A program made the translations under genes and the position numbers. From positions 7,793,501 through 7,857,500 of the forward strand of contig NZ_JACHNB010000001.1 in the NCBI RefSeq assembly GCF_014205225.1: DNA of 64,000 nucleotides. Direction: 5' to 3'. Of this stretch, positions 45,201-64,000 are shown one piece after another. The DNA is from Actinoplanes octamycinicus. GTDB lineage: Bacteria; Actinomycetota; Actinomycetes; Mycobacteriales; Micromonosporaceae. How positions within the stretch are numbered: the stretch's first letter is position 1; every line of letters starts with the position of its first letter. The notes below the pieces were generated by a model that worked only from the letters and a program-made list of their open reading frames with translations, had not been told where the DNA came from and ran no database searches.

Positions 45201-47903
45201 GCTCACCTGCAGGGCAGCCTCTCGTTCGACGTGATCACCATCGGTGACTGGTACCACGACGCGGACACCGAGAAGGTCGCCCTCCAGATCGACCGCAAGG
45301 AGGTGTGGACCAAGGCGTTCGACGCCACCGTCGCGCCGCAACGCACCGGCACCCTCGGCAACGGTCAACCGTTCGCGGTGCACCGCGTCACGGTGCCGCT
45401 GAGCCACATGCTCAGCCAGCTTGAGGCGGTCTTCACGGCCACCGGCGTCGATGGACTGGCGAACCAGGGCTTCGGCATCGACAACGTCGCTCTGCACGTC
45501 ACCGCCATCCCGCCGCAGGTCTTCGAGACACGCCTCCCGCTCACGGCTCCCGGAAGCGTCGGCGTCTCGGGTGCCGGCTACCTGGAGGCATCGGGCGTGC
45601 GTGACGAGTATCGGTTCACCGTCCAGCAGGGCGAGGAGCTCTACATCGACCCGCTCTACTGTGTGGACCAGACGTACCTGGAATGGCAGCTCCTCGCCGA
45701 GGCGACCGGGACGGCCGTCGCGCACGGTGGGTGCGGAGACGCGCGGACGCAGCCGCTCGCCGCGGGCACCTACCGCTTGATCGTCGGTGCGCCCGGCGAC
45801 CACAGCGGCCCCTACGTGATCTCCGCCTTCGTCGCCCCGGCGGCGCAACAGTTCGACGTGACCCTGCCGCTGCTGGTGAAAGCCGGCCAGCAGACCGGCA
45901 ACGGCGCCGGCAACCTCGAGACCAAGGCGTCGGTGGATCAATACCGTTTCACGCTGCAGGAAACGAGCGCGCTCGTGGTCACCATGCAGTGCGCCGACTC
46001 CTACTGCCCCAAGCGGGAGATCGTCAACACGACCACCGGTGAGGTCACCGCCCTCGCAAGCTCCGCGACGGATCGCACGAAGCGACTCCCCGCCGGCACC
46101 TACCGCCTGGTGGTGAGCTCGGTACTCGACACCAACCGGACCGGCCCGTACGGCGTGGAGATCTACGTGGTGCCGCCCGCCCAACTCTTCGACGTGTCGT
46201 TGCCGATCTCGGTGGCCGACGGCGCTCCCGCTGCCGGAGCCGGCAACCTCGAGGCGCGATCGTCGTCCGACGAGTACCGGTTCACCCTCAGTGAGGCACA
46301 GGAGGTGTACATCGACGTGACGACCGCCAACCGCGGGTGCCTCGACCAGGTGGTCTGGACGCTCGTCGACGACGCCACCGGTGCCATGGTGGAGACGCCG
46401 AGCACCTGCAGCAAGCTGACCAAGGCGCTGTTCGCGGGCCGCTACCGGCTGGTCGTTGACTCTCCCACCAACAAGGTCACGACCTATCAGGTACGAATCA
46501 AGCAGAGCCCGCCGCAGGTGTTCCACGTGACACTGCCGCTGGGTGTCACCGGACCGGAGCCGGGGTGGGCCGCTCCGCCGCGGAGTGTGGGTGCCGGCTC
46601 GGGTGTGATCGAGGACGCGGTCTCGCGCGACCAGTACCGGTTCACGCTCGCCGAGGAGCAGACCCTGCGATTCGTCAGCCAGGGATGTGCCGCCTGGGGA
46701 CCGGACGTCCGCCTGACCAACACCGCCACCGGTGCTGTGCTCGGTGGGGGCCGGTGCTATGAGGACCAGACCTTCACCCGGGTCCAGCCAGGCTCCTACC
46801 AACTGCAGTTCACCGCGAACAACCAGGCGGACATCTACGCGTTCGACCTGTTCGTGATTCCGCCGAAGCAGACGTTCGAGGTGGCGTTCCCCGTGCACAT
46901 CTCCGACGATGTGCCCGCCCTCGGTGCCGGCAACATGGAGACGCTGGCCTCGGTCGACGAGTACCAGTTCGTGCTCCCGGCCGCGCAGGCGCTCTACTTC
47001 GACGTGGACTGTCCCACCACCATTCCCCAGTTCTTCCTGCTGGACGAGGCGGGCGACGAGGCCGCGCCGCCGATGGGCTGCCGCGACGAGCGCACCCCCG
47101 TGTTGCCGGCCGGCAAGTACCGCCTGCGGGCGGAGTCCTGGTCCGGAACCGGCGCCTACACGGCGGCCCTCGTGCCGATTCCCGCCGCGCAGAAGTTCGA
47201 CATCTCGCTGCCCACGGAGATCAGCAGCGGTGTGCCCGGTGCGGGCGCCGGCGTCCTCGAGGACAAGAGGGCCGTCGACGAGTACCACTTCACGCTGGAC
47301 AGTCCGCAGTACCTGTACGTCGACGCCGGACAATGCACCGACGACCCCGCCTTCGAGTACCGGGTCGCTGACGCGGTCGGCGGCAGCCTGCTGGGCTCGT
47401 GCGGCCACGGACAGTCGCTCAACATCGACGGCATGTGGATGGAAGCCGGCGAGTACACGATCACTGTCAGATCGTACGAGGAGCGGGCGGGCACCTACCG
47501 GCTGAAGATCAAGACGCTGCCGGAGCAGAAGTTCGCGGTGTCACTGCCGGTGGCCATCAGCGCCGGTGTGCCCCGGGCGGGTGCCGGCACCATCGAGCCG
47601 GGAACCGGGAACGACCTGTACGAGTTCGACGTGGCCGCGGGGCAGCGTCTGTACGTGACGGTGCCGGAGTGCCCGGCGGCCTCCGACCCGGCCTGGGCAG
47701 ACCACGGGCTCACCTGGAACCTCGGACGATTCGCGACGCACAGCGTGTGGGGTTACGAGTACTTCGACGAGGTGGCCTCCGGTAAGTGCTCCGACGGGCA
47801 GACGGAGCCGCTTCCCGCCGGTCGGTACGCGTTGTATATCAGCACTTACGACAGTCCGATGAACTATCGGCTGAAGGTCGGCGTCCTGCCGCCACCGGCC
47901 TGA
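39270..47903 (+). CDS. Giant secreted multidomain protein with NucA/NucB-type nuclease module
   Basis: A 2,877-residue secreted protein; ATG 39270 follows an AGGAGG site and an upstream in-frame start at 39237 is less likely. The signal peptide ends near residue 47. Ten He_PIG Ig-like repeats (about 50-895) each contain (S/T/A)ATGLPxGLxI and GxxxGTPxxAG. FN3 lies at about 897-982 and a discoidin-like domain at 987-1140. A NucA/NucB-type module spans about 1395-1613, with the marker YDCDEIPFNSTYQ at Cys1532-Asp1533-Glu1534. A VWD-like domain begins GDPHLTTLDGLHYDL near 1664, then an FDFEA domain follows at about 1925-2085. Seven repeats run to the end, each LPL...GAGxxExxxxxDxYxFxL. I infer an extracellular adhesive DNase, possibly for eDNA use or competition. 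Confidence 0.85.
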   Translation: MAAHVGHRARGSAQPMASTIGRRSTTWVAWCVATLLTTFVAVPAAHAATAPVITSPGAQSSPSKVALSLAMKLTGGTTPFAWSATGLPVGLTINATTGVISGTPTSAGTVTSTVKVTDGAKLSHSVSFPWATGVLVTNPGMQGVATGTAASLPMKAAGGTTPYTWSATGLPAGLTINATTGVIAGTATTAGSYTVTVNATDTAKVAGSAPFTLNVGPAPVVTSPGNQSSPTLIATTVPVTATGGTAPYKWSATGLPAGLSIDIGTGTISGTPATAGTTTATVTATDAKAIPQSVSFTWATGVFVDSVPSRGSATGTAVSLAHAARGGTAPYKWSATGLPAGLTINATTGAITGTPTATATYTTKITATDAAAVAGSVTFTWNTGPGATVTTPGAQAGTTGTAVSKTISATAGTTPYQWTATGLPAGLMINAQTGVVTGTPTAAGSSNVTVTVTDAKLIAKSVAFTWAVTAPLQATNPGAQYSTTGAAVSKTLTAAGGTGSYSWTATGLPAGLMINAQTGAVTGTPTTAGSTSASVTVTDTAGRTHNVAFAWTVSAPLAVDNPGAQTGTTGTAVAKTVTAKGGAGPYTWAATGLPAGLMINVQTGVVSGTPTTAGSTSASVTVTDAAGRTSSTTFTWAVVARLQATNPGTQNATTGEAVSKTLAATGGTGSYTWAATGLPAGLMINAQTGAVTGTPTTAGSNSVTVTVADTGSRTDSVTFTWAVGAPLILDNPGAQDSSTGTAVSKTIVARGGTSPYAWTATGLPTGLMINAQTGVVTGTPTTADAPRTVVVKSTDAVGRMSAVTFAWTVSGPVIVTDPGPQQAVTGGTVSLTVGATGGASPYTWSASGLPAGLAIDAQTGVVTGTPMAAGSTSATVTATDTVGRTNSVTFTYQVVLGVPAQMSARAEGAQTVHLAWVAVPGATGYQLYRNDELVAVTGWYPGFIDRQLEGATTYRYQVKAVDADGRDSGLSMPASVTTDALPLAPVNFARCEAAEGAPGCPYAASVAASATYPDTGHVSLTDGVHGTALYGPAWQGRDNVSVYSFTVDLGTARPITEINSSWFQVTSDFTMLPPSVTYLTSADGVTFAKAAYLDRPNVSSATQIVTYRAVGLDLTARYVKVELDGGSAWTMTDEVEIRGADAQLPPVGDESTLDFQPGPARNEGESLEDYLQRIAVPVESLAEVISQVKSNAKLPGAVKPAGAPESEVAAEGRVGIAATPSAGDRRFQRCQDRHEEAKKNNSDGPNWYYDGRFYACQVNDDAVYEQKECDLRTGRCKRIGITEYRLTVVGEAATSGRYIDWYTRIDKMKQIEGAEALQAISPLNVQMVCEAQTSDGGSCAGSPGRTVPLSIWKIDSDYHQRTEGLTTGSTGWSDNKFSKLRKKTLSTDPKVSTFSAYVQVTNPLPSLEDAIPLLGKGQPTIFRCDTAQYIAQNNTGGCVFSAVPGYMEYDYAGPTQQESVHFFYLAYYYLDKVKKNPVPGVYIPGSAQHRPIEPMTRNVYEQRSRSKVRAECRRQNGNKPYSTGPNGTEYDCDEIPFNSTYQAAPFVDDKKVNTPVPGTGPGTIDDITYATWAARPVKRDHNSATGNALGVFYQKNRILSQDEFYVSIKNAPETCAPCADMPPMAGPDLDPLAPLPIVDPDTDESFTDGETLPEIPLPPINIYGDPHLTTLDGLHYDLQSVGEFDFASSAKYGLRIQTRFTPMGETWSGLESMATMVNGHRVEFTAAGGMRLDGKDFTLPGEHLVDLGGDATVRRTGGRYVIAWGSTGDGPVLAWSPGMTAGIGLSVPADADLRGLLGNGDKDPQNDLKLRDGTQLRADTPASVLHGTYADSWRIAAESSLFTYKAGQSTATFTDKTYPKNVVTINSLTASEVAAGTETCTAHGVTPGPQFEACVVDVVLTGNAEFAAMAAQRKEVAIDPRAANVNAAGDLGFDFEAATLPSNLAPTTLTTDAATTSFAGPFSGRNASYRFFAQQLPAHLQGSLSFDVITIGDWYHDADTEKVALQIDRKEVWTKAFDATVAPQRTGTLGNGQPFAVHRVTVPLSHMLSQLEAVFTATGVDGLANQGFGIDNVALHVTAIPPQVFETRLPLTAPGSVGVSGAGYLEASGVRDEYRFTVQQGEELYIDPLYCVDQTYLEWQLLAEATGTAVAHGGCGDARTQPLAAGTYRLIVGAPGDHSGPYVISAFVAPAAQQFDVTLPLLVKAGQQTGNGAGNLETKASVDQYRFTLQETSALVVTMQCADSYCPKREIVNTTTGEVTALASSATDRTKRLPAGTYRLVVSSVLDTNRTGPYGVEIYVVPPAQLFDVSLPISVADGAPAAGAGNLEARSSSDEYRFTLSEAQEVYIDVTTANRGCLDQVVWTLVDDATGAMVETPSTCSKLTKALFAGRYRLVVDSPTNKVTTYQVRIKQSPPQVFHVTLPLGVTGPEPGWAAPPRSVGAGSGVIEDAVSRDQYRFTLAEEQTLRFVSQGCAAWGPDVRLTNTATGAVLGGGRCYEDQTFTRVQPGSYQLQFTANNQADIYAFDLFVIPPKQTFEVAFPVHISDDVPALGAGNMETLASVDEYQFVLPAAQALYFDVDCPTTIPQFFLLDEAGDEAAPPMGCRDERTPVLPAGKYRLRAESWSGTGAYTAALVPIPAAQKFDISLPTEISSGVPGAGAGVLEDKRAVDEYHFTLDSPQYLYVDAGQCTDDPAFEYRVADAVGGSLLGSCGHGQSLNIDGMWMEAGEYTITVRSYEERAGTYRLKIKTLPEQKFAVSLPVAISAGVPRAGAGTIEPGTGNDLYEFDVAAGQRLYVTVPECPAASDPAWADHGLTWNLGRFATHSVWGYEYFDEVASGKCSDGQTEPLPAGRYALYISTYDSPMNYRLKVGVLPPPA

Positions 47904-50056: not shown

Positions 50057-51214
50057 GTGACCAGCCTTCCCGATGCCGAGCGCCCGCCCCGGATCGCGGC
50101 CGCCGCCACCCTCTTCGCCGCGTCCGGGGTGCTCATCGCGATGTCGCTGCTGGCCTGGTGGGGCGGGCGGCCGCTGGGGCCGCTGTTCGCGCTGGACCTG
50201 ACCGCCGGCGTGCTGAGCTGGCTGCTCACGCCGCTGGTGCTGTGGCGGCCGGTCGGCGCCACCGCGGTGCTCACCGCGCTGGCCACGGTGTCCCCGATGG
50301 CGACGCCGCCGGCCACCATCGGCATGCTGCAGGTGGCCCGGCGGCGGCGATTCCCGGTGGCGGTGGCGATGGCGGCGGCCGGGGTCGCGGCGCACGCGAT
50401 CCAGGGGCTGTGGCGGTCCAACGGCGGGATGGCTTACGGCTGGTGGCTGGCACTGATCACCTTCGCGTACGGGGCGCTGCTCGGCTGGGGTGCCTGGGCG
50501 CAGGCCCGGGCCGCGCTGATCGCCTCGCTGCGGGAGCGGGCCGACCGGGCCGAGGCGGAACAGGGCCGCCGGGTCGCCGAGGCCCGGATGCTGGAACGCC
50601 GCAAGATCGCCCGGGAGATGCACGACGTGCTCGCGCACCGGTTGTCGCTGCTGGCCACGTTCGCCGGGGCGATGGAGTACCGGCCGGACTCGTCGCCGGA
50701 GCAGATGTCCCGGGCCGCCGGGGTGGTGCGGGACGGGGTGCACCAGGCCCTGGAGGAGCTACGCGAGGTGATCTCGCTGCTCCGGGACGACGCACCGGCG
50801 AACGACGACGGGACCCGACCGCAGCCGGTCCTCACCGACGTGCCCCGGCTGGTCGCCGAGTCCCGGGAGGCGGGCACCGAGGTGCTGCTGGAGGAGACGG
50901 TGACCTCGCCCGCGGCGGCGCCGGCGGCGGTGGCCCGGACGGCGTACCGGGTGATCCAGGAAGGCCTGACCAACGCCCGGAAGCACGCTGCCGGGCAGCC
51001 GGTCCACGTGCACCTGCGGGGTGGGCCGGGCACAGGTCTGCAGGTCGAGATCCGCAACGCCCTGACACCGGACAACCCGGCGCCTCCGGGCTGGTCGGGC
51101 GGAGCCGGGTTGGTCGGGCTCACCGAGCGGGTGCAGCTGGCCGGCGGGCGGCTGGACCACCGGTCAGGTGACGGCGAGTTTCACCTGCACGCCACCCTCC
51201 CCTGGCCGTCCTGA
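50057..51214 (+). CDS. NarL-type sensor histidine kinase
   Basis: 385 residues from GTG 50057. About five N-terminal membrane helices (20-150) are followed by a coiled linker and a HisKA_3 domain with His189 in IAREMHDVLAHRLS. The ATPase domain includes YRVIQEGLTNARKHA (N box) and GAGLVGLTERVQLAGG. It is the likely partner of the response regulator at 51974, but the two are separated by about 760 bp of repetitive DNA instead of the usual tight coupling. Confidence 0.9.
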   Translation: MTSLPDAERPPRIAAAATLFAASGVLIAMSLLAWWGGRPLGPLFALDLTAGVLSWLLTPLVLWRPVGATAVLTALATVSPMATPPATIGMLQVARRRRFPVAVAMAAAGVAAHAIQGLWRSNGGMAYGWWLALITFAYGALLGWGAWAQARAALIASLRERADRAEAEQGRRVAEARMLERRKIAREMHDVLAHRLSLLATFAGAMEYRPDSSPEQMSRAAGVVRDGVHQALEELREVISLLRDDAPANDDGTRPQPVLTDVPRLVAESREAGTEVLLEETVTSPAAAPAAVARTAYRVIQEGLTNARKHAAGQPVHVHLRGGPGTGLQVEIRNALTPDNPAPPGWSGGAGLVGLTERVQLAGGRLDHRSGDGEFHLHATLPWPS

Positions 51215-51221
51215 CCCATCC

Positions 51222-51465
51222 CAGCCACCCCGCCTCCCGCCTCCCGCCGGGACCCCTCGCCGCTTCGCCCCGTTCCATCTCGCCCCACCTGACCTCGCCC
51301 CACCTCACCTCGCCCCGCCCCGCCCCATCTCGCCCCGCCCCATCTCGCCCCGCCTGACCTCGCCTTGCTTCGCCCTGCCCCACCTCGCTTTGCCCGCCCC
51401 GCCTCGCCTTGCCTTGCCCCGCCTCGCCTCGCCCGCCTCGCCCCGCCTCGCCTCGCCTCGCTGAT
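51222..51465. repeat. C-rich low-complexity tract
   Basis: Irregular repeats of CCTCGCCCC, CATCTCGCC and related words for about 240 bp after the histidine kinase stop; the complement is correspondingly G-rich. No coding signal. Slippage-prone sequence that may form G-quadruplex-like structure on the minus strand. Confidence 0.75.
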
Positions 51466-51490
51466 GCTGTGTGGTTGGCTCCGCGACGTG

Positions 51491-51890
51491 GTCCGGCAGC
51501 CCGTCGCCGTTTCTCGACACCCGCGGATCCGGTGGTCCGGCAGCCCGTCGCCGCTTCCTCGCCACCCGCAGATCCGGTGGTCCGGCAGCCCGTCGCCGCT
51601 TCCTCGCCACCCGCAGATCCGGTGGTCCGGCAGCCCGTCGCCGCTTCCTCGCCACCCGCAGATCCGGTGGTCCGGCAGCCCGTCGCCGCTTCCTCGCCAC
51701 CCGCAGATCCGGTGGTCCGGCAGCCCGTCGCCGCTTCCTCGCCACCCGCAGATCCGGTGGTCCGGCAGCCCGTCGCCGCTTCCTCGCCACCCGCAGATCC
51801 GGTGGTCCGGCAGCCCGTCGCCGCTTCCTCGCCACCCGCAGATCCGGTGGGGTGGCGGGCATTCGTCGCCTCCTCAAGACCCGCGGATCC
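51491..51890. repeat. 45-bp tandem minisatellite, seven identical plus two diverged copies
   Basis: Seven exact 45-bp units fill 51528-51842 (starting at 51528, 51573, 51618 and so on, each beginning TCCGGTGGTCCGGCAGCCCG). A diverged unit lies on each side. The identical copies imply recent expansion. The period is a multiple of three and the unit has no stop codon in several frames, so long artefactual reading frames run through it. It separates the kinase from its response regulator. Confidence 0.92.
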
Positions 51891-51973
51891 GGTGGGGCGG
51901 CCGATGGGCGGTCGTTGCGCCTCCGGGTACTCCGGTTCGGGCGGGGCGGTCGGCGGGTGGTGGGGTGGATAGC

Positions 51974-52636
51974 ATGACGGGCGTGGATCGGCCGGTTCGG
52001 GTGTTGGTGGTGGACGACGACGCGCTGGTGCGGGCCGGACTGACCATGATGCTCGACGGGGCGCCGGGGATCTCGGTGGTCGGCGAGGCGGACGACGGCG
52101 ACCGGGTGCAGGCGGCGGCTGACGCGCACGCGCCCGACGTGGTGCTGATGGACCTGCGGATGCCGCGCGTGGACGGGATCACCGCGACCCGGCGGTTGCG
52201 GGCCCGGCAGCGGCCGCCGGAAGTCATCGTGCTGACCACCTTCGACACCGACGAGAACATTTTGCACGCGCTCCGGGCCGGGGCCAGCGGCTTCCTGCTC
52301 AAGGACACCCCACCGGCCCGGATCGCGGAGGCGGTCCGTCAGGTGGCGGCCGGCGAACCGATCCTCTCCCCGCGGATCACCCTGCGCCTGATGGACCGGG
52401 TCGCGGTGCAGGCCGGCGCCTACGCCCGGGCGCGAGCCACGCTGGCGGCGCTCAGCCCCCGGGAGCACGACGTGGTGGTGGCCGTCGGGCAGGGGTACAA
52501 CAACGCGGAGATCGCCACCGAACTCGACATGACCCTGGCCACGGTGAAGACCCACGTCTCGCACATCCTCACCAAGCTGAACCTGGACAATCGAACCCAG
52601 CTCGCCCTGCTGGTCCACGACGCCGGCCTCGCCTGA
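51974..52636 (+). CDS. NarL/LuxR-family response regulator
   Basis: 220 residues. The receiver has VLVVDDDALVRAG, Asp60 in DVVLMDLRMPRVDG and ASGFLLKDTPPARI. The LuxR helix-turn-helix is LSPREHDVVVAVGQGYNNAEIATELDMTLATVKTHVSHILTKL. ATG 51974 starts exactly at the receiver fold. The same frame is open far upstream through the 45-bp repeats, but that stretch is not protein-like. Probable partner of the kinase at 50057. Confidence 0.92.
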   Translation: MTGVDRPVRVLVVDDDALVRAGLTMMLDGAPGISVVGEADDGDRVQAAADAHAPDVVLMDLRMPRVDGITATRRLRARQRPPEVIVLTTFDTDENILHALRAGASGFLLKDTPPARIAEAVRQVAAGEPILSPRITLRLMDRVAVQAGAYARARATLAALSPREHDVVVAVGQGYNNAEIATELDMTLATVKTHVSHILTKLNLDNRTQLALLVHDAGLA

Positions 52637-53140: not shown

Positions 53141-53236
53141 AACCGGCCGATGATGCAAACGGCCGGCAATGCGAACGGCCGATGATGCGAACGGCCGATG
53201 ATGCGAACGGCCGATGATGCGACCGGGCGGCGATGC
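53141..53236. repeat. 16-bp tandem repeat, six units
   Basis: Units of 16 bp start at 53141, 53157, 53173, 53189, 53205 and 53221. The three central ones are identical (GAACGGCCGATGATGC) and the outer ones differ by a few bases. It lies just downstream of the 3' end of the CHAT operon (53389). No spacers and a very short period, so not CRISPR. Confidence 0.85.
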
Positions 53237-53388: not shown

Positions 53389-55104
53389 TCAGGGTCGGGA
53401 AGCGACCGCTACCGGATCGCCATAGATGGCGTAGGCGAGTCTGGTCGGATCGGCGTTGTTGCTGCTCAGGGCGCCTCGGGCGGTCATTGACGCCGTGCCG
53501 AGCGGGACGCCGGCGGCGAATTCGCGGTAGAAGGCGAGGGCGAAGCGTCTGGCGGCCGGCGATTTGACCGCCCAGGAGGAGCCGATGAAGGCACCGGCCC
53601 CGGCTCGGAGGAATTGTTCGGCCCAGCCGCCCATCAACGTGTCGTAGGAACCGCCGTCCACGCTGCCACAGGCATTGAAGAAGACCAATGGACAACGGCG
53701 GGCCAGGGAACCGGTCGCCGCCGCGCGGGCCAGGGAGACCGGTTCGAAGCGGCCATCGGTCATCAGCACTCCGCCGGGCTGGCCGCCCTCCGGATTCGCC
53801 TGATGGCAGGCGAGATGCAGCAGATTGAAATCGCCGGCGTCGATCCGGGAGATGAGGCTTCGCTGATCGGCGATCCCTTCCGGAACGCCGACGGGCGCGG
53901 CAAGGGTGGCGGCGGAATCGGTGGTGGGGAGTGCGGAGGGCGAGTCGAAGAGGAGTTCATGGAGCCGGCTGATCTCGCGGTCGGCGCCGATCGGTGGGTT
54001 GCTGCCCAGCACGAACACCGGGTCGATCAGGGCGAGCGAGCGGCTCAGCGGCCTGGTCCCGGTCTGCCGGACCAGCGGCACCCGGTCGACCAGGAAGCCG
54101 TCGCCGGCCGGGTCGGTGAGCAGCTCCCAGGGCAGCGTGCTGACGTCCGTGCACAGCGTCAGCGCGCTGACCGTGGTGGCTTTGAGGCGGGCCGTGACCT
54201 CCGAGCGGACCGGGGGCGGCAGCAGTCCCCACAGCGTGGTCCCCCAGTCCGCCAGCCTGCGGCGCGCGTTCGGCGGCGTGAAGGCGGACTCCCCGGACGC
54301 CATCTGGTGCGCGTCCCGCAGGATGTCGCGGATCAGGGCCCGCGGGATCGGCTCGGCGAGCGCGGCCGGCCCGTCCGTGCCGATCAGGCGGCAGACCAGG
54401 CCGCTCACGGTGCGGTCGATCTGCACGGTCACCATGTCCGGGCCGGCGGCGAGGTGGTCCAGGCGGGCGGTGACGGTGCGCGGCCGGTCGGTGGTTCCGG
54501 CCGGATCGATCTCCACGGTACGCACGACCGCGCTCAGCTCGCCGCCGCCACCGGCGAGGAAGGCCCGGACCCGGACCTCGTGCCGGCCGGGCGTCGGCGC
54601 GCTCAGCTCGAACAGCACGGTGTCCGAGTCCGCGTCGGGCAGGACGCGCACCCGCTGCACCGCGTCCGACTCGATCTCCAGGGTTTCCGAGGCGACCGAG
54701 AGCAGCACGTCCACCCCGGGCGGCGGGATCGGGAACGGCCGGGTCGGCACGCTGCCCGGCCCGCCGTCCAGGGTGATCGCGGCGTGCAGGGCGAGCCGCC
54801 GGCCGCCGCGGGCCCGGGCCGGCAGCGAGGTGGTCAGGTAGCGGGCCGGTGGCGCGGCGCCCGGTTCGGCGCGCAGCCGGCTCTCGGCGGTGCGGATCGC
54901 CGAGCGGGCCCAGCGTTCCAGGCCGGGGTCGGCGCGCAGCGCCCGCTGCAGGGCGAGCTGGGCGAGCGGCCCGGACGGGCGGGCCAGCGCGGCGTCCAGG
55001 GCGGCCGCGACCCGGTCGGCCGCGCCGGGCTGGTCGAGCAGCTCGGCCAGCCGCTCCCGGGCCTGGCCGGCGATCCGGCGGAGGGCTTCCTCATCCACGT
55101 TCAT
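53389..55104 (-). CDS. CHAT-domain (caspase-like) peptidase 1
   Basis: 571 residues. The N-terminal third is helical and repeat-like, and the middle (about 95-250) is a beta-rich sandwich with RHEVRVRAFLAGGGG. The C-terminal CHAT peptidase (about 310-560) carries the His-Cys dyad: His434 in LLHLACHQA and Cys479 in VFFNACGSVDGG, followed by FIGSSWAVKSPAARRFALAFY. CHAT proteins are caspase-hemoglobinase-fold cysteine proteases, used as effectors in several bacterial conflict systems. ATG 55104 begins 10 bp after the stop of the second CHAT gene; it is the last gene of the operon. Substrate unknown. Confidence 0.88.
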   Translation of the reverse strand: MNVDEEALRRIAGQARERLAELLDQPGAADRVAAALDAALARPSGPLAQLALQRALRADPGLERWARSAIRTAESRLRAEPGAAPPARYLTTSLPARARGGRRLALHAAITLDGGPGSVPTRPFPIPPPGVDVLLSVASETLEIESDAVQRVRVLPDADSDTVLFELSAPTPGRHEVRVRAFLAGGGGELSAVVRTVEIDPAGTTDRPRTVTARLDHLAAGPDMVTVQIDRTVSGLVCRLIGTDGPAALAEPIPRALIRDILRDAHQMASGESAFTPPNARRRLADWGTTLWGLLPPPVRSEVTARLKATTVSALTLCTDVSTLPWELLTDPAGDGFLVDRVPLVRQTGTRPLSRSLALIDPVFVLGSNPPIGADREISRLHELLFDSPSALPTTDSAATLAAPVGVPEGIADQRSLISRIDAGDFNLLHLACHQANPEGGQPGGVLMTDGRFEPVSLARAAATGSLARRCPLVFFNACGSVDGGSYDTLMGGWAEQFLRAGAGAFIGSSWAVKSPAARRFALAFYREFAAGVPLGTASMTARGALSSNNADPTRLAYAIYGDPVAVASRP

Positions 55105-55114
55105 CGGTGGCAGC

Positions 55115-56314
55115 CTAGGCGCCGGTGAAGGTGAACGCGGCCCAGCTGGCCGGCTCGGACCAGGGCCGGCTGCCCGACTCGCCGGCCGCGAAGACGCCCG
55201 GGAGCAACGCCGCCGCCACCTCCTCCGGCAGCCACGACTCCCCCGCCTCCAGCGCCGCCGCCCAGTGGTCCTCGACCTCGGCCGGGGTGGCGTCGCGCAG
55301 CCACCGCTGGGCGCCGATCAGCGCGGCGGCCGGATCCCCGGCCGGCTCCCAGCGACGGTAGAACTCGGTCATCAGCAGCGCGGTGGCGTGGTCGTCGACC
55401 GCCCACATCGAGGCCACCACGCCGGCCACCCCGGCCTGCAGCAGCCCGGTGGGCAGGTTGATCACCTCGTCCGGCAGGGTCCGGCCGGGCACGAACGTGT
55501 CGCAGGCGGACAGCACGGCGAGCCGCAGACGCAACCGCATCGGCAGGATGTCGGCGAGCCGCAACGAGGTGGTGGCGGTCAGCCGGATGGCGTTCTGCAG
55601 CGGTTCGGTGGCGACCGCGCCGTGGCAGCCGAAGTGCGCCACGTCGGCGGCCGGCAGCAGCGCGCTGTCGAAGTCACTGCCGTCCCGGACCTCGCTCTCC
55701 GGGAACGCAGCGGCCGCGGCCAGCCCCTCCCACCGGGCGTGCGGCAGCCGCGCGTCGGTGACCACCAGCAGCCGCCGCGCGTCGACCCGGGCGGCCAGGT
55801 CGCGGGCGGCCGCGAGGGCCCGGGCGTTCGGGGTGTAGCCGGGCACCAGGTCGTCGATCAGGTAGCGGTAGCCGGTCGGCCGGGACGCGTCCGGGCAGCG
55901 GGCCGCGTGCAGCGGCAGCAGCCCGGTCAGCCCGGCCGGGACCAGCGTGATCCGGGTGGTGCCGGGCAGCGCGTCGAGCAGCGGCCCGGCGACCGCGTCC
56001 CAGAGCCAGCCGGTCAGCCCGGGCAGGTGCTGCCGCCAGCCGTCCCGGGCGGCGTGCCGTTCCGCCCAGTCGTGCACCTCGCGGTCGGTGAGGCCGGGCA
56101 GCCGTACGTCGGTGACCATCTCCCCGTGCACGATCAGGGCCAGCCCGGCCTGCTCGGACGGCACCAGGTAGACCAGCGGGTGCCCGGCGGTCGCGGCGAC
56201 GTCGGCGAACCGGGCCGGCGCGAGGAAACCCTCGAACCCGGGCACCTGCTGGATCGCGGTGATCGCCGCGGCCAGCTCGGCGTGCGCCACTTGCAGCTCA
56301 TCGGGCGGACTCAT
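55115..56314 (-). CDS. CHAT-domain (caspase-like) peptidase 2
   Basis: 399 residues, mostly a CHAT domain, with an N-terminal beta-rich segment (PLVYLVPSEQAGLALIVHG). The dyad is His231 in VAHFGCHGAVA and Cys271 in LAVLSACDTFV, followed by LLQAGVAGVVASMWAVDDHATALLM, the typical (G)-V-x-x-V-x-x-x-W-x-V block. It is clearly different from peptidase 1 in its N-terminal part and dyad context, suggesting two distinct targets or a cascade. The small ORF upstream overlaps its start by 17 bp. Confidence 0.9.
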   Translation of the reverse strand: MSPPDELQVAHAELAAAITAIQQVPGFEGFLAPARFADVAATAGHPLVYLVPSEQAGLALIVHGEMVTDVRLPGLTDREVHDWAERHAARDGWRQHLPGLTGWLWDAVAGPLLDALPGTTRITLVPAGLTGLLPLHAARCPDASRPTGYRYLIDDLVPGYTPNARALAAARDLAARVDARRLLVVTDARLPHARWEGLAAAAAFPESEVRDGSDFDSALLPAADVAHFGCHGAVATEPLQNAIRLTATTSLRLADILPMRLRLRLAVLSACDTFVPGRTLPDEVINLPTGLLQAGVAGVVASMWAVDDHATALLMTEFYRRWEPAGDPAAALIGAQRWLRDATPAEVEDHWAAALEAGESWLPEEVAAALLPGVFAAGESGSRPWSEPASWAAFTFTGA

Positions 56315-56558
56315 CGGCCTTCTTTCGTCTCGTCCGGTCCCGGCCGGAGCAGCAGCGTGTGCGGCACAGCGGCGCCGGCAGCGCGGCGTCCGGCGCCCGC
56401 AGCGAGTTCCGCGGGGCGACGACGGCGCCGCCGTTGCCGGACCGGCGAATCGCCGGACAGCCGGCGTGCCGCAGTTCCGGCGGCAGGTCCCGGCCCGGCG
56501 TGCCGGGGACGGACCGGCGGGCGGGCAGCGAGAACTGGGCGAAGCGCGCCGATCTCAT
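56298..56558 (-). CDS. Small Arg/Cys-rich ORF inside the CHAT operon
   Basis: 86 residues that exactly fill the gap between the phosphatase and the second CHAT gene: ATG overlaps the phosphatase stop (ATGA, 56558-56555) and its stop lies 17 bases inside the CHAT start. The text (DLPPELRHAGCPAIRRSG, LCRTRCCSGRDRTRRKK) is low in hydrophobic residues and basic, so it may be a small regulatory peptide or simply leftover sequence. Supported only by its position. Confidence 0.35.
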   Translation of the reverse strand: MRSARFAQFSLPARRSVPGTPGRDLPPELRHAGCPAIRRSGNGGAVVAPRNSLRAPDAALPAPLCRTRCCSGRDRTRRKKADESAR

Positions 56559-57256
56559 GGCCGGATGTCGACCACGAGGATGCTCAGGTTGTCCGGGGCG
56601 CCCTCGGCGTACGCCTCGTCGCGTAGTGCCTCGACCAGCTTGGCGGCGTCGTCGAGGCGGCAGGAGCGGCGCAGCACCCGGTCGTCGAGCACGCCGTGCA
56701 CCCCGTCGGTGCAGAGCAGGTAGCGACCCTCCGCCGGGGTGTCCCGGACGTACGGGTCGAGCCCGCCGGGCGTGTCGCCGAGCGCCTGGGTGAGCGTGGA
56801 CCGGCCGGACGCGTGGTCGACGCTGACCTGCTCCAAATACCCGTCGGTGATCCGGTAGACCCGGCTGTCCCCGACGTTGAAGATCCGGGCGCCGCCGGCG
56901 TGCAGCAGCAGCCCGGCCACCGTGGTGCGCATCCCGGCGGTGGCCGGCGCCCGGGCCGCGGTGTGGTGCAGCTTCTCGCTGACCGCGATCAGCCCGGCGT
57001 GCACCGCCTCCGCGGTGTCCCAGCCCGGGTGGCGGGCCACCAGGTCGCCGACCGCGAGCCGGCTGGCCAGGTCGCCGGCGTTGTGCCCGCCGAGCCCGTC
57101 GGCGACCGCGAACAGCAGCGGCGGCCCGTCGGTGGTCAGTTCGACGATCCGCGGCTCGGCGGCCTGGCTGGTCCAGCCGGCGACCAGCACGGCGTCCTGG
57201 TTGCCGGCGCGCACGCTGCCGCGGGCGGTCAGCGCGGTGACCCGGGCCCCGGTCAT
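56555..57256 (-). CDS. PP2C-family Ser/Thr protein phosphatase
   Basis: 233 residues from ATG 57256. PP2C motifs: TARGSVRAGNQDAVLV (motif 1), FAVADGLGGHNAGDLAS with the metal-binding Asp-Gly, GMRTTVAGLLLHAGGARIFNVGDSRVYRI, LTQALGDTPG, YLLCTDGVHGVLDD and GAPDNLSILVVDI. It should dephosphorylate proteins phosphorylated by the operon's kinase. ATG overlaps the FHA stop (ATGA). Confidence 0.92.
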   Translation of the reverse strand: MTGARVTALTARGSVRAGNQDAVLVAGWTSQAAEPRIVELTTDGPPLLFAVADGLGGHNAGDLASRLAVGDLVARHPGWDTAEAVHAGLIAVSEKLHHTAARAPATAGMRTTVAGLLLHAGGARIFNVGDSRVYRITDGYLEQVSVDHASGRSTLTQALGDTPGGLDPYVRDTPAEGRYLLCTDGVHGVLDDRVLRRSCRLDDAAKLVEALRDEAYAEGAPDNLSILVVDIRP

Positions 57257-57771
57257 GCCCCGGCCCGCCGGACCCGGACCCGGACCGTGCTGGAGAACCG
57301 CAGCTCGTCGCCGTCGTGCAACTGGCGCCGGTCGCCGTGCTCCACCTTGCGGTCGTTGACGAAGGTGCCGTTGGTCGAGCCGAGATCGCGGACGTAGAGG
57401 TCGCCGCTCTCCACCCAGACGATCGCGTGCTGGCGGGACACCTTGTCGTAGTCCTTCAGCGCGTCGGCGATCCGGCCCAGTTCCTCGGCCCGGCCGATGC
57501 GCAGCTCGTCGCCGCCGACCGCCACCGGGCCGAACGGGAACTCGAGCTGGAAGAGGATGCTCTCCCGGGTGGTCGCCGGCGCGTAGACGTCGGCCTCGGC
57601 CGCCATCGTCAGGCTGTGCAGCGGGCAGGTGCCGTCCGGGTTGAGCGGGTTCCCGCAGCCGGGCTCCGGGCAGGTCGGCTCCGGCTGCAGGAACTCCATG
57701 CAGCCGGGTTGCGAGCAGAGCGAGCCGCCGCCGCTCTGCGGGCCGTGGATCGGGCAGATCAGGGTCGCCAT
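57253..57771 (-). CDS. FHA-domain protein with N-terminal zinc ribbons
   Basis: 172 residues. Residues 1-55 hold paired cysteines (ICPIHG, SLCSQPGC, TCPEPGC, GTCPLH), a double-zinc-ribbon-like start. An FHA domain (about 85-165) shows LRIGRAEELGRI, VSRQHAIVWVESGDLYVRDLGSTNGTFVNDRKV and LHDGDELRFSS. FHA domains bind phosphothreonine, so this is the reader of the kinase mark. Its start overlaps the radical-SAM stop by 13 bp. Confidence 0.9.
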   Translation of the reverse strand: MATLICPIHGPQSGGGSLCSQPGCMEFLQPEPTCPEPGCGNPLNPDGTCPLHSLTMAAEADVYAPATTRESILFQLEFPFGPVAVGGDELRIGRAEELGRIADALKDYDKVSRQHAIVWVESGDLYVRDLGSTNGTFVNDRKVEHGDRRQLHDGDELRFSSTVRVRVRRAGA

Positions 57772-58394
57772 GACACGCCTTCCAGTTCGATGCCCTGGTC
57801 ACGCAGGACGCGCTGCAGCCGGGCCAGGTCACCGCGGCCGGGGATGCCGATCAGCCAGACCCGCTCGTCGTCGACCTGCAGCTGCAGCTCGGGGTGCTCG
57901 CGGACGGCGCCGGCCCAGCGGGCGTAGCGCTGTTCGCCGCGCGGGGTGCACGGGATCAGCCGCTGGTTGGCCGAGCCGCGCCAGAGCAGGTCGGTCGGCT
58001 CGGTGATCCGGAACGGTCCGGTGATCAGGGCGTCGATCTCCGCGACGGCGTCCGGGCAGCGCCGCCGGAACTCGTCCAGCTCGACCCCGGTGTAGCAGAG
58101 CAGGTCCCAGTCCGGGTCGATCCGGCGCAGCCCGCGCAGCAGCTCGGCGAGCGCCTCCGGCTGCTCGGACGGCTCGCCGCCGCTGATCGTCACCCCGTCG
58201 GTCCCGGCGGCCCGTTCGGCGCACCAGGCGAGCACGTCGGCCACCTCGATGTCGTGCTCCGGCCCGGCGGTCCAGGTGTCCCGGGCGACGCAGCCGGGGC
58301 AGCCGATCCCGCAGCCCTGCACCCAGATCCCGATCCGCCGGCCCGGACCGAGGGCGGTCACCGGGTGATGCATCCGAGCCAGCCGCAGCCTCAT
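57759..58394 (-). CDS. 4Fe-4S radical-SAM activase-like protein
   Basis: 211 residues. A CX3CX2C cluster motif at Cys28, Cys32 and Cys35 (WVQGCGIGCPGCVAR) is followed by VTISGGEPSEQPEAL, the GGEP SAM-binding block. This is the short NrdG/PflA-like radical-SAM fold. A C-terminal extension (about 155-211) with LQVDDERVWLIGIPG looks like an added small domain. It may oxidise or activate a glycyl-radical or peptide partner, but none is recognisable in the operon. It starts 43 bp after the AAA+ stop. Confidence 0.85.
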   Translation of the reverse strand: MRLRLARMHHPVTALGPGRRIGIWVQGCGIGCPGCVARDTWTAGPEHDIEVADVLAWCAERAAGTDGVTISGGEPSEQPEALAELLRGLRRIDPDWDLLCYTGVELDEFRRRCPDAVAEIDALITGPFRITEPTDLLWRGSANQRLIPCTPRGEQRYARWAGAVREHPELQLQVDDERVWLIGIPGRGDLARLQRVLRDQGIELEGVSWRP

Positions 58395-58437
58395 CCGGCC
58401 ACCTCAGTGACGCTCCGGCGGCCGTACCGGCGGGGCC

Positions 58438-60269
<1,832 letters not shown>

Positions 60270-60273
<4 letters not shown>

Positions 60274-61502
60274 AGTGTCCGCTCCCTCTGCTGCTGCGTG
60301 CTGCGCTGCGCGGTGCCGGCCGGGATGACCTCGTCGGCGACCGCCTGCACCGGGCGGGTGCCGGGCGCCTGCCGGGCCACCTCGGCGACCTGCACGCCCT
60401 CCTTGCGCATGGCGCGCAGCAGGACGTCGTAGTCGTCGCAGAACTTGCGCTCGGCGCCGGCGTCGTCGGCGGCCCCGGCGTGGTTGCTCCGGGCCCGGAC
60501 CACCTGGGTGCGGACCACCGGGTTGTCCCGGTCGAGCAGCACCTTGACGCCGTAGCCGCGGCCGTCGCTCATCCCCGCGTAGGCCACGCCGTCGCCGGCC
60601 AGCCGGGTCTCGAAGCCCTCGGCCACCTGGTAGCCGAGGTCGGCGAGTTTGGTGCGCAGCGCGTTCGCGACGGCTTTGCGGCGGCGGGCCCGGTCGGCCC
60701 GGTCGACCACCTCGTCCGCCTCGGCGCGCATGCCGTCCGGCACCTCGCGGACCCGCTCGGCGATCAGCCGGCCGATCCGCGCGCGCAGCCGCTCCGCCTC
60801 CTCCCCCGGGACGGTCTCCAGCGGGGCGGCGATGGCCAGCAGCTCGCGGCGGGCCCGGTCGACCTCCTCCTCGGCGCGCTGCGTGTCGCGGACCCGTTTC
60901 TCCAGGTCGGTCAGGAGCAGCCGGGTCCGGATCGGGGAGGCGCCGCCGGCGATCTCGGCGGCGGCCGCGGCGCAGGCCGCGCGGGTCTCGGCGGGCGCGC
61001 CGGCCGGCAGCCGGGAGACCAGGTCCGCGGCCCGCTCGGCGTCCGCTTCCCGGCGGGCCGCCAGTTTTTCGGTACGCCGTTCCGCGCTCCCGTCGCTGGT
61101 CCGCACCGGTTCCGGTGTCCTCTCGACGACCGAGTCGTCCCAGGTGCGCGTGGTGCCGGCCGCCTCGGCCGCGGGTCCGGCGGCGAGCAGTCCGCTGACG
61201 TCGCTGCGGGAGGCGGCGCTGACCGCGGCGCGCAGCGCGTCCCGTTCCTTGCGGGCGAGTTCGCGCAGCTCGCCGGTGGTCGCGGCGATCTTGGCCGGGG
61301 AGTGCTTGGGGCGGGCCTGGCGGCCGGCCGGCACCTTGGCGATCCGGTCGCCGTAGACCGAACGGTAGGCGTCCGCCTCGGCCCGGATCGCCTCCAGTTC
61401 GCCGCGCGCCTGCACGTACCGTTCCCATTCGGCGCGTTGCTCGCGGGCCAGCCGCTCGGCGGCGGTCTCCACCACGTAACGCGCGCCGGTCATCGAGCTC
61501 AT
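60270..61502 (-). CDS. Coiled-coil protein, 410 aa
   Basis: 410 residues, Ala/Arg/Glu-rich. Long coiled-coil segments cover about 10-50, 75-95, 145-165 and 205-290, followed by a compact strand-rich domain (about 280-360) with LGYQVAEGFETRLAGDGVAYAGMSDGRGYGVKVLLDR. A Gln/Thr-rich tail ends RSTQQQRERTL. No known domain. In the operon it sits between the kinase and AAA+ genes, so it may be a scaffold or adaptor. ATG 61502 begins 13 bp after the kinase stop. Confidence 0.7.
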
Positions 61503-61515
61503 GCGTCGTCTCCTC

Positions 61516-63999
61516 TCACCACTGCCACCACACCTCGGTCGGGGACGGCAGGAACGGCACCGCGACCTGCTGCCACACCCAGAGCGGCTGGACCAGGTAG
61601 AGCGCCACGACCGCGAGGATCAGCACGGTCCGGATCCGGCGGGCCACGGCGCCGCCGTCGCCGGCCTCGGTCTGCCAGCCGCGGTTCACCATCCGCCGGC
61701 CGATCCAGAGCGCGAGGATCCCGGCGCCGAGCATGGCGTACGGGAAGATCGCCGCGAAGTTGCCGTTCACCGCCTGCAGCGGGTCGTGGAAGGCGCTGCG
61801 CAGCACGATCGGGAACCGGACCAGGATCCGGTACTCGCCGTCCGCGACGGTCAGCACGATGGCCAGCGCGATCGCGAACAGCCAGCAGAACCAGCGGGCC
61901 CGGCGCAGCGCGGCCGGCGGGTCGGCCGGCCGGATCAGCAGGCAGCCGAGCACGACCAGCACCGGCAGCGCCACCATGGTCTGCACGTCGGTGATGTTGA
62001 GCAGGTAGAGCGGGGCCTTGCCGGGGACCAGGTCGTACGCCTCCAGCTTGCTGACCGCGGCGCCGAGGAAGGTGGTCAGGTAGGCGAGCAGCACGGCGAG
62101 CAGCAGGTTGACCACGTCCCGCCAGCCGTTGCGCAGCGCGGTCCCGCCGCCGCCCGGCGCCATCCCGGCGCGGGCCGCCCGCTCGTTGCGTTCCTCCTGC
62201 TTGGCCTGGGCGCGCTGGGCCTTGGCGGCGGCCGACTCGGCGGTGGCCACCGGGATCAGCGCGGTCGCCACCGCGCCGGCGGCCAGCTGCCGGTGGTCCG
62301 GGCCGCGGGCCTCGTCGCGCAGCTCGGCCCACCAGCCGACCTTGCCGGGCGTCTTCTGCCGGCGCAGCTCGGCGGGCAGGCGCTCGCGGTGGTCCGGGTC
62401 GACCAGCAGGCGGAACGCGATCGCGGTGGCGGCCGGCAGCGCCTGGTCCACCTCGGGCCGGCGGGCCGGGCCGTACCCGCCGGTGGACGGGTCGGTGAGC
62501 GCGAGCCGGACCGCCAGGTCGTTGATCCGTTCCTGGACCGCGGCGGTGACCTGGTCGAGCCGGTCGGCGGCCGCGGTGAGCACCGCGCAGCCGGGCTGGT
62601 CGCCGGCGCACTGCGGGTGGGTGCGGCAGCGGTGCCGGGCCAGCGCCCGCAGCAGGCCGACGTTCAGCGCCTGGAGCAGGCCGGTCGCGGTCGGGTCGCC
62701 GGCCGCCGCGGACTGGGCCAGCAGGGCCAGGCCGGGCGCGTCGGCGCGGCGCTGCTCGTAGACCGGCGGCATCTCCGGGGCGACCCAGGAGATCAGCCGG
62801 GTGAGCCGGGCGGCCGCGTCGGTGCGGTGGGTGACCTTGGTGCGCATCAGGTTCTCCGGCAGGTTGGTCGCCGGGAAGTTCTCCCGCATCCAGTCGGAGA
62901 GGTCGAGCTGCTGGGCCCGGTTCTGGAAGAGGGCGAGGCCGGCCGCCCAGTTCTCGGAGAGCGCGGCGCCGACCTCCTCCGGGGTGCGGCAGAGCCGGCC
63001 GGCCACCTCGAACGGCGCGACCGGCGGGGCGGCCACCGGCGCCGGCTCGGTGATCGGCGCGTCGTGCACCGCCGGGCGTTCGCCGGCCAGCCAGGCGCGC
63101 ACCTCGGTGGCACCCCAGCGTTCCTCCGGCGCCCGGGTGAGCAGGCCCTGGCAGAGCAGCCGCCAGTCCGGGTCGGTGATCCCGTCCAGGTCGACGCCGT
63201 AGGTGGCGATGTGCTCGAAGACCGCCCGCTCGTTGACCGCGTGCCCGCCGACGCCGCTGTTCGGGTTGCGCCCGGTGAGCAGCTCGACGATCACCACGCC
63301 GAGCGACCACCAGTCCTGTTCCGGCTTCTGGCTCTTCTGCCACCAGGTCTCCGGGGCCTGGTAGGCCGGGGTGCCGGCCCGGCCGGTGGTGCGCCGGGTG
63401 GCGCGCAGCTCGGCGACCAGGCCGAAGTCGCAGAGCACCAGGTCGACCGGGTGACGGCTGCGGAGCAGGATGTTCTCCGGCTTGATGTCGCGGTGCGCGA
63501 TCCCGGCGGCGGCGCCGTGCCGCAGCTCGCCGTGCAGGTAGGCGAGCGCGTCGGTGACCTGGCGGAGCACCTCCCGGACCTGGTCCGGCGGGAGCGCGCC
63601 GCCGTGGTCGCGGGCCAGCGCGGCGAGCGAGCCGGCCGGGGCGTACTCGAGCACCTCCCAGCTCATCTCGCGGCCGAAGGCGCCGGTCTCCTCGCCCCAG
63701 TCGATCACCCGGACCACGTGCCGGGCGTCGGCGGTGCGCAGCGCGTCGAGCAGGGCGGTGTCCGGCCGGACCGCGGTCGGGTAGACCTTGGCGACCCGCT
63801 GCTCGCCGGTCTCCCGGTCGCGGACCAGCATCACCAGGTGCGCCTCCCCGCCGGTGGCCAGGTCGGCCTCCGGGCGGTAGCGGGCGAAGATCGCGGCGGG
63901 CAGCCCACCGGAGTCCTCGGTCGGCGGGCGGCCCTCCGGACTCTCCCGGGTCGTCGGCGCGGGCCCCGCCGCCCCCTCCCGGGTGGTCTGTGCCGCGCC
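61516..63999 (-). CDS. Membrane-anchored Ser/Thr protein kinase (5' end outside window)
   Basis: The frame runs off the right edge; 827 residues are visible. A Pro/Ala-rich start leads into a protein-kinase domain: TGGEAHLVMLVRD (Gly-rich loop), VAKVYPT (ATP Lys), HRDIKPENILL (catalytic loop), LVLCDFGLVAEL (metal Asp) and GTPAYQAPETWW (activation segment). About 280 residues of helical domain follow, then five membrane helices with ALLAYLTTFLGAAV and LALWIGRRMV, ending VWWQW. It is probably the sensor/input of the operon, phosphorylating partners read by the FHA protein. Confidence 0.9.
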   Translation of the reverse strand, partial: GAAQTTREGAAGPAPTTRESPEGRPPTEDSGGLPAAIFARYRPEADLATGGEAHLVMLVRDRETGEQRVAKVYPTAVRPDTALLDALRTADARHVVRVIDWGEETGAFGREMSWEVLEYAPAGSLAALARDHGGALPPDQVREVLRQVTDALAYLHGELRHGAAAGIAHRDIKPENILLRSRHPVDLVLCDFGLVAELRATRRTTGRAGTPAYQAPETWWQKSQKPEQDWWSLGVVIVELLTGRNPNSGVGGHAVNERAVFEHIATYGVDLDGITDPDWRLLCQGLLTRAPEERWGATEVRAWLAGERPAVHDAPITEPAPVAAPPVAPFEVAGRLCRTPEEVGAALSENWAAGLALFQNRAQQLDLSDWMRENFPATNLPENLMRTKVTHRTDAAARLTRLISWVAPEMPPVYEQRRADAPGLALLAQSAAAGDPTATGLLQALNVGLLRALARHRCRTHPQCAGDQPGCAVLTAAADRLDQVTAAVQERINDLAVRLALTDPSTGGYGPARRPEVDQALPAATAIAFRLLVDPDHRERLPAELRRQKTPGKVGWWAELRDEARGPDHRQLAAGAVATALIPVATAESAAAKAQRAQAKQEERNERAARAGMAPGGGGTALRNGWRDVVNLLLAVLLAYLTTFLGAAVSKLEAYDLVPGKAPLYLLNITDVQTMVALPVLVVLGCLLIRPADPPAALRRARWFCWLFAIALAIVLTVADGEYRILVRFPIVLRSAFHDPLQAVNGNFAAIFPYAMLGAGILALWIGRRMVNRGWQTEAGDGGAVARRIRTVLILAVVALYLVQPLWVWQQVAVPFLPSPTEVWWQW

Positions 64000-64000
64000 C

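Follow-up and report, generated by a model that had tools for sequence, protein, structure and literature searches.

We analysed a window of 64,000 nucleotides from Actinoplanes octamycinicus (G000:C1:7793501-7857500), whose genome is a single contig of 10.28 Mb. Below, G numbers are genomes, L numbers are loci, and OWN is the operon of G000, the A. octamycinicus genome. Eight genes lie on the minus strand of the window (Table 1). They encode two CHAT peptidases (CHATa and CHATb), a PP2C phosphatase, an FHA protein, a radical-SAM protein, an AAA+ ATPase, a coiled-coil protein and a kinase. A preliminary description, made from the letters alone, had given these genes the same positions and domains, and Pfam bears this out. 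It had counted nine genes at 53389..63999. Eight were found, but the ninth was never named. The one candidate, an 86-residue open frame in the gap between PP2C and CHATb, is doubtful because PP2C directly abuts CHATb in the closest relative, G272, where neither gap nor frame is conserved. Most junctions are short, as described. Read 5' to 3', beginning with the overlap between the upstream gene and the kinase, they are -4, +13, -4, +43, -13, -4, 240 and +10 nt. Note that the 240-nt gap, between PP2C and CHATb, had been left out. Furthermore, while the genes had been placed correctly, the operon extends past the window, since both the kinase start codon and a 627-residue gene overlapping the kinase gene lie beyond it.

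Table 1. The operon, the gene upstream of it and the divergent operon beyond. All positions use window numbering; those above 64,000 are outside the window.
Feature	Position	Strand	Match or remark
CHATa, 571 aa; divergent CHAT peptidase, domain in C-terminal half	53389..55104	-	PF12770 4.8e-17
CHATb, 399 aa; canonical CHAT peptidase	55115..56314	-	PF12770 3.1e-40
Arg-rich open frame, 86 aa	56298..56558	-	within PP2C-CHATb gap; probably no gene
PP2C phosphatase, 233 aa	56555..57256	-	PF13672 (PP2C_2) 9.8e-10
Zinc-ribbon-like and FHA adaptor, 172 aa	57253..57771	-	PF00498 4.7e-18
NrdG-like radical-SAM protein, 211 aa	57759..58394	-	PF13353 (Fer4_12) 3.3e-26
HSP100-type AAA+ ATPase, 611 aa	58438..60273	-	PF07724 (AAA_2) 2.3e-42; ClpB D2-small 3e-7
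Helical coiled-coil protein, small alpha/beta C-terminal domain, 410 aa	60270..61502	-	no Pfam match
Ser/Thr kinase, 864 aa	61516..64000 in window; ATG at 64110	-	PF00069 1.9e-35
Kinase N-terminal tail, window part	63928..64000	-	whole tail ends at 64110
627-aa gene upstream of kinase	64107-65990		overlaps kinase gene
653-aa gene	66606-68567		divergent operon; no Pfam match
Weak SrfB match (actin-like member)	68564-71476		divergent operon; 16.1 bits, cut-off 27.1
429-aa gene	71476-72765		divergent operon; no clear match
vWA protein, two hydrophobic segments	72762-74267		divergent operon; VWA_2 1.2e-11
Tubulin-like protein	74299-77349		divergent operon; Tubulin_2 8.3e-35

Both CHAT proteins are predicted peptidases, with a CHAT domain and, as first described, an intact His-Cys dyad. 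The residues are H434 (53803-53805) and C479 (53668-53670) in CHATa, and H231 (55622-55624) and C271 (55502-55504) in CHATb. CHATa has homologues in G272, G299, G278 and G498, and CHATb in G272 and G498. The match of CHATa to SAVED_CHAT of CBASS (4.1e-4) covers part of the protein only, and CHATb scores 17.6 bits against a cut-off of 300 for Csx29 of type III-E. In the AAA+ protein, Walker A (59233-59256) and Walker B are in the second module. The first module lacks Walker A, and no P-loop was found in residues 1-325. The AAA+ motifs are kept in 43/43 homologues and the fold matches ClpB, ClpC and ClpA. For the coiled-coil protein, the structure model has a mean pLDDT of 82.1; a Foldseek search with it returned nothing at E<=0.001, though this does not establish a new fold. 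The kinase has intact HRDIKPEN and DFG motifs, with five hydrophobic segments near the C-terminus. PP2C residues D53, D184 and D222 are kept in 13/13 homologues.

The radical-SAM protein, to which the preliminary description assigned no role, has the cluster motif CGIGCPGC at 58290-58313. This CxxxCxxC motif and the GGEP motif, both expected of NrdG, are kept in 37/37 homologues. NrdG is the nearest named family, and a search of a phage collection returned only NrdG-like proteins (7 records, with about 30% identity over 64-69% of the protein). One might hence suppose that the gene encodes a normal NrdG, serving the anaerobic reduction of nucleotides, and that this part of the operon is housekeeping. 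We reject this role and regard it as highly improbable. The score, 85.6 bits, is under the family cut-off of 126.1, and no NrdD was found in the A. octamycinicus genome by a search that finds it in 6/14 named control genomes. In addition, the gene accompanies the AAA+ gene at most other loci, as described below. We conclude that the radical-SAM protein is, by conservation, part of a near-invariant core.

The preliminary description had proposed tabulating the neighbours of AAA+ homologues. Our query was the N-terminal 325 residues, without the ClpB-like second module. At E<=1e-5, matches occur in 5/246 genomes of the class, 17/67 of the genus and 35/300 of the family (overlapping sets). Hence, the spread is patchy. 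At E<=1e-30 there were 33 loci, of which 30 were examined with profiles iterated from the window proteins. When all six frames were searched up to 13 kb from the AAA+ gene, we found a kinase and an FHA gene at all 30 loci, the coiled-coil gene at 29, radical-SAM at 27, CHAT at 21 and PP2C at 13. Called genes gave the kinase and coiled-coil genes at 30/30, FHA at 29/30, radical-SAM at 26/30, and the same counts for CHAT (13 kb) and PP2C. The six-frame search adds FHA in G306 and radical-SAM in G241, and the coiled-coil match in G038 comes from gene calls only. Note that for the G310 kinase and seven radical-SAM genes, where the gene caller had misplaced the start, the start was taken from the upstream open frame. 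Radical-SAM is missing near the AAA+ gene in G409, G423 and G303, the last on a contig that stops, to one side, some 7 kb away from AAA+.

Co-occurrence is thus strong across 30 loci, and local adjacency in one genome does not account for it. However, the expectation that all eight families would occur together was not borne out, given the PP2C and CHAT counts. The gene set is, judged from these comparisons, conserved beyond chance across further genera and families within the class, with a reduced set in Proteobacteria. By the same measure, the core is the HSP100-type AAA+ protein, the NrdG-like radical-SAM protein, the coiled-coil protein and the kinase. The zinc-ribbon FHA adaptor joins it in actinobacterial loci, PP2C in some, and the output varies between loci.

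CHAT genes are found within the operon run itself at 10/30 loci (OWN, G272, G498, G400, G328, G326, G292, G303, G409 and G423). In G498, an opposite-strand gene, between those for PP2C and CHAT, separates CHAT from the rest of the run; it encodes a NACHT protein (L111:3280-5241; PF05729 1e-7) with homologues in G299 and G278. Presence at 21 loci within 13 kb, but at only 10 in the operon, suggests that CHAT is one of several outputs; we conclude that it is, on this comparative evidence, an exchangeable output and not core. A caspase-domain protein was confirmed near the core in G292, and proteins of the same sequence cluster occur at seven further loci.

Alternatively, the core might be a kinase-controlled chaperone or protein-repair system, and the CHAT genes functionally unlinked neighbours in defence islands. 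CHAT is absent within 13 kb at 9/30 loci, other genes often intervene between CHAT and core, and CHAT pairs are found elsewhere, this genome included. By chance, CHAT would be expected within 13 kb at about 4% of loci (binomial 1e-22 for the count observed), an estimate that takes the 17 CHAT matches of this genome for all genomes and ignores both relatedness and the clustering of defence genes. We nevertheless consider functionally unlinked CHAT genes improbable: where CHAT is in the operon run, its neighbours are FHA, PP2C, kinase or coiled-coil genes, and this holds for different CHAT lineages.

These lineages were separated in a tree of 51 rows, in which CHATa and CHATb of the window are counted twice. 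One clade (99/98) holds 28 rows, including one CHAT from elsewhere in this genome. CHATa and CHATb fall outside it, in two other lineages, so that CHATs near the core come from at least three. In each of the nine tandem pairs whose two members both belong to the 28-row clade, the dyad is complete in one protein and its partner retains neither His nor Cys (the Cys column is a gap in three). Both members are intact in OWN and in the G272, G498 and G253 pairs. The tandem CHATs at L114:13008-17458, L120:9481-14171, L127:5061-10364 and other loci, an active protease beside a pseudo-protease, are reminiscent of caspase/pseudo-caspase pairs. Two further tandem CHAT loci were seen in A. octamycinicus. 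The first, L010:9450-11989 (G000 6008825-6010716), is a very divergent pair, with one member lacking His, beside which phmmer found no core gene. The second is L166:10372-15003. Its main CHAT is in the 28-row clade, and AAA+, FHA, radical-SAM, PP2C and coiled-coil genes were not found there.

How kinase and FHA protein might communicate is suggested by the kinase N-terminal tail. Here, six T-x-x-E sites lie in the tail, of which five read TTRE, and the DNA encoding them is a tandem repeat whose period is 24. At least two T-x-x-D/E motifs precede the kinase domain in 28/30 core kinases and in 0/30 other kinases of this genome, the controls being the best 30 of 45 kinase matches. This array in core kinases is new here. 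The count covers the open frame ahead of the kinase domain, to a maximum of 110 residues. The mean per tail is 3.9 for core kinases, 1.0 after shuffling and 0.07 for controls, although control tails are shorter and part of the contrast is length. For 20/30 core kinases p<0.05. The array is lacking from the kinases of G326 and G400, both FHA-bearing loci, and at L027, L031, L033 and L035, from named genomes, FHA is present with no more than one motif in the called kinase tail. In the FHA protein, R94, S112 and N134, which we take to be pocket residues, are kept in 32, 32 and 34 of 34 homologues. At least one zinc-ribbon-type Cys pair lies ahead of the FHA domain in 32/34 FHA proteins. The protein here also carries a TTRE motif of its own, at residue 67, making self-binding possible. 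As the available text of PMC6375734 describes for yeast Rad53, pTxxD is a canonical FHA-interaction motif. The T-x-x-D/E array probably provides docking sites for the FHA adaptor.

At L025, L028, L029, L034 and L198, zinc-ribbon-type Cys pairs lie in the kinases themselves. FHA was not found in the available DNA of the first four, nor in the four genes of L198. A single tether may therefore serve both branches, covalent in one, where the kinase carries the Cys pairs, and made by phospho-docking in the other.

The 627-residue protein encoded upstream of the kinase has a homologue in G303 that directly precedes a 483-residue CHAT gene. The profile of the 627-residue protein gives a weak match (2.4e-6) to a different CHAT protein encoded in this genome, and Pfam finds no TPR in the protein itself. 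From its context, it may be one half of a split TPR-CHAT pair, the half that senses. At the other end of the operon, and convergent with it, genes for a sensor kinase (HisKA_3) and a response regulator of the LuxR type lie at 50057-52636. Genes of similar length lie at the operon end in G272, and in G299, G278 and G498 a two-gene pair separates the two modules. The two-component pair is possibly a linked trigger. A tandem array of period 45 (51488-51850, 8.1 copies, 98% matches) just precedes the response-regulator gene. Another, of units of about 16 nt (CGGCCGATGATGCGAA; 53144-53236, 5.2 copies), lies just beyond the operon end. Further away, a protein of 2365 residues, encoded at 40806-47903, combines Ig-like repeats with a VWD domain and matches a NucA/NucB-type DNase; it may be a large protein that is secreted or displayed at the cell surface.

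The divergent operon adjoins the core, as a Tubulin_2, transmembrane vWA and weakly SrfB-like module, in 5/30 loci (OWN, G272, G299, G278 and G498). It raises the possibility of a developmental or envelope-remodelling device, in which kinase, FHA, PP2C and HSP100 proteins would govern how the neighbouring vWA/tubulin-like/actin-like scaffold is assembled and the CHATs would be maturation proteases. The available text of Makarova and Koonin 2010 (PMC2875224) reports kinases in FtsZ-like 1/vWA operons and proposes membrane remodelling. The divergent module has the domains of such operons, Tubulin_2 and vWA, a domain match made without FtsZl1 phylogeny. It differs in that no GTPase or OmpA protein was found. 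Close SrfB-like homologues (57% identity or more) occur in 6/300 family genomes, and the sixth, G375, has the module with no core gene in the 40 kb examined. The core, for its part, is patchy and occurs on plasmids too, and in its proteobacterial form has a helicase-nuclease output. We thus reject the module as a part of the core, conclude that it is, from its distribution, apparently associated and not essential, and regard an envelope-remodelling device as unlikely, though worth keeping in mind.

Outside the class, 12 of 80 loci from named genomes were analysed, several on contigs that end close to the AAA+ gene. Radical-SAM and coiled-coil genes were each found at 10, the kinase at 9, FHA at 5, and PP2C and CHAT at 1 each. 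At L028 (Bradyrhizobium), L029 (Burkholderia; genes taken from open frames) and L034 (Sphingomonas), AAA+ and radical-SAM genes are followed by one for a fusion of 2,030-2,135 residues, and then by the coiled-coil gene. The fusion combines kinase, DUF4011, SF1-helicase and MTES_1575 nuclease domains. In L028 and L034, the two tested, it matches the PADLOC models PDC-S37, Hhe and MkoA. Unlike Mokosh-like and PDC-S37 systems, the helicase is fused to a kinase, and the gene for the fusion shares its operon with three others, for AAA+, radical-SAM and coiled-coil proteins. The AAA+ N-terminus also occurs in 8/72,556 plasmid records (seven Rhizobium, one Caballeronia; 29-33% identity), five of the eight typed conjugative. 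On the conjugative Rhizobium plasmid pRLgr12_2 (L198), four genes with overlaps of 4 to 8 nt are recognised by the profiles for AAA+, radical-SAM, kinase and coiled-coil proteins. Its kinase protein has 2,086 residues; the helicase/nuclease fusion was seen in the three loci scanned, L028, L029 and L034. At L027 (Methylocaldum), the type III-B CRISPR genes Cmr2, Cmr4 and Cmr6 lie downstream.

A second branch emerged from seven examined loci, out of eight with weak AAA+ matches. Kinase, radical-SAM, a gene of 348-417 residues and AAA+ follow in this order in 7/7, with an extra gene of about 500 residues in 6/7; G415 has an extra called frame between kinase and radical-SAM. In G260, this core adjoins PP2C, two vWA proteins and sub-threshold matches to DO-GTPase1 and GAP1-M, neighbours that tie it to the GTPase-centric conflict systems described by Kaur et al. 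2020. The loci of this branch, L205-L206, L155-L156, L207 and their kin, hold operons with vWA, PP2C, kinase, radical-SAM, an unknown gene and AAA+, with a membrane-type vWA gene in three.

We compared the locus with other known systems. In the available text of Kaur et al. 2020 (PMC7159879), actinobacterial GAP1-N2 conflict systems have a tubulin domain with an alpha-helical C-terminal domain, membrane vWA, kinase, PP2C and vWA neighbours, and variable outputs. Tubulin-domain, vWA, kinase and PP2C proteins, which are accessory and not defining features, are also found here. However, the defining TRAFAC GTPase and GAP1 protein are not: in the operon and divergent module, neither had a Pfam match at E<=0.5-1, and no GxxxxGK[ST] occurs outside the AAA+ protein. 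Conversely, HSP100 and NrdG-like partners, present in the core here, are not named for GAP1-N2 systems in that text. It also covers MoxR-vWA (VMAP and related) ternary systems, where a chaperone-type AAA+ ATPase is proposed to gate swappable effectors. Membership is rejected on AAA+ type, since the protein here is HSP100/Clp-type (ClpB/ClpA-like) and not MoxR; no VMAP was recognised.

The pattern of kinase, phosphatase, FHA reader and HSP100 ATPase is that of the type VI secretion regulators PpkA, PppA, Fha and ClpV. We reject membership on AAA+ type and scores. The AAA+ protein has 202.1 bits against a ClpV cut-off of 884.95, and the FHA protein 33 against 120 for TagH. No secretion genes were among the annotated operon proteins. 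Neither the gene set nor its parts were recognised in the literature searched, including the available text of PMC10853773, PMC8195603 and PMC13092281; most subscription journals and bioRxiv preprints lay outside this search, so it is no proof of absence.

We favour, with moderate confidence, a modular conflict system not described before, of which the operon here would be the actinobacterial form, armed with CHAT. The system would be phospho-gated, HSP100-powered, equipped with swappable effectors and perhaps of the abortive-infection type. A conserved system is well supported by comparative data, and defence or programmed death is our best reading of its purpose. A conflict role had been proposed from the start. 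It gains from the exchanged effectors, the defence-type helicase-nuclease fusion, the conjugative plasmids and the type III CRISPR neighbour, but the eight-family set on which it was based is not universal. The membrane kinase, with partners, would sense a trigger and then phosphorylate the T-x-x-D/E array in its N-terminal tail. Docking of the FHA adaptor at this array, we presume, would place its zinc ribbons and whatever it has bound beside the kinase, and PP2C would remove the phospho-mark, thereby setting the threshold. The HSP100 motor would then remodel and release the output, with a partner probably modified or gated by the radical-SAM enzyme. Here, abortive infection would result, with the CHAT protease pair cleaving proteins of the cell and halting it; the corresponding output of the proteobacterial form would be the kinase-fused SF1 helicase-nuclease. 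Note that we infer the radical-SAM substrate, the phospho-docking and the order of events. Against this explanation stand the loci without nearby CHAT or PP2C (the latter 17/30), those without the array (G326, G400) or a nearby radical-SAM gene (G409, G423), and CHAT pairs that exist without the core.

A bolder proposal, which we hold tentatively and which could go either way, is a new class of bacterial immune circuit, spanning Actinomycetota and Proteobacteria and built on HSP100 and NrdG-like radical-SAM proteins. The kinase tail would carry a multivalent phospho-threonine code, read by the FHA-zinc-ribbon adaptor (in the proteobacterial form, the zinc ribbon is fused to the kinase). CHAT-pair or helicase-nuclease cassettes would be swapped, and the radical enzyme would modify the unfoldase or its coiled-coil partner post-translationally. 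The four-gene plasmid form is small enough for direct testing, and the repeat array offers a simple, falsifiable switch model. There is also a chemical question: what the radical-SAM enzyme targets, and why a conflict system would need one. If our proposal is true, HSP100 unfolding, radical-SAM chemistry, a phospho-array/FHA switch and caspase-like proteases, a combination not met in the literature and models searched, would be united in one mobile system with interchangeable outputs.
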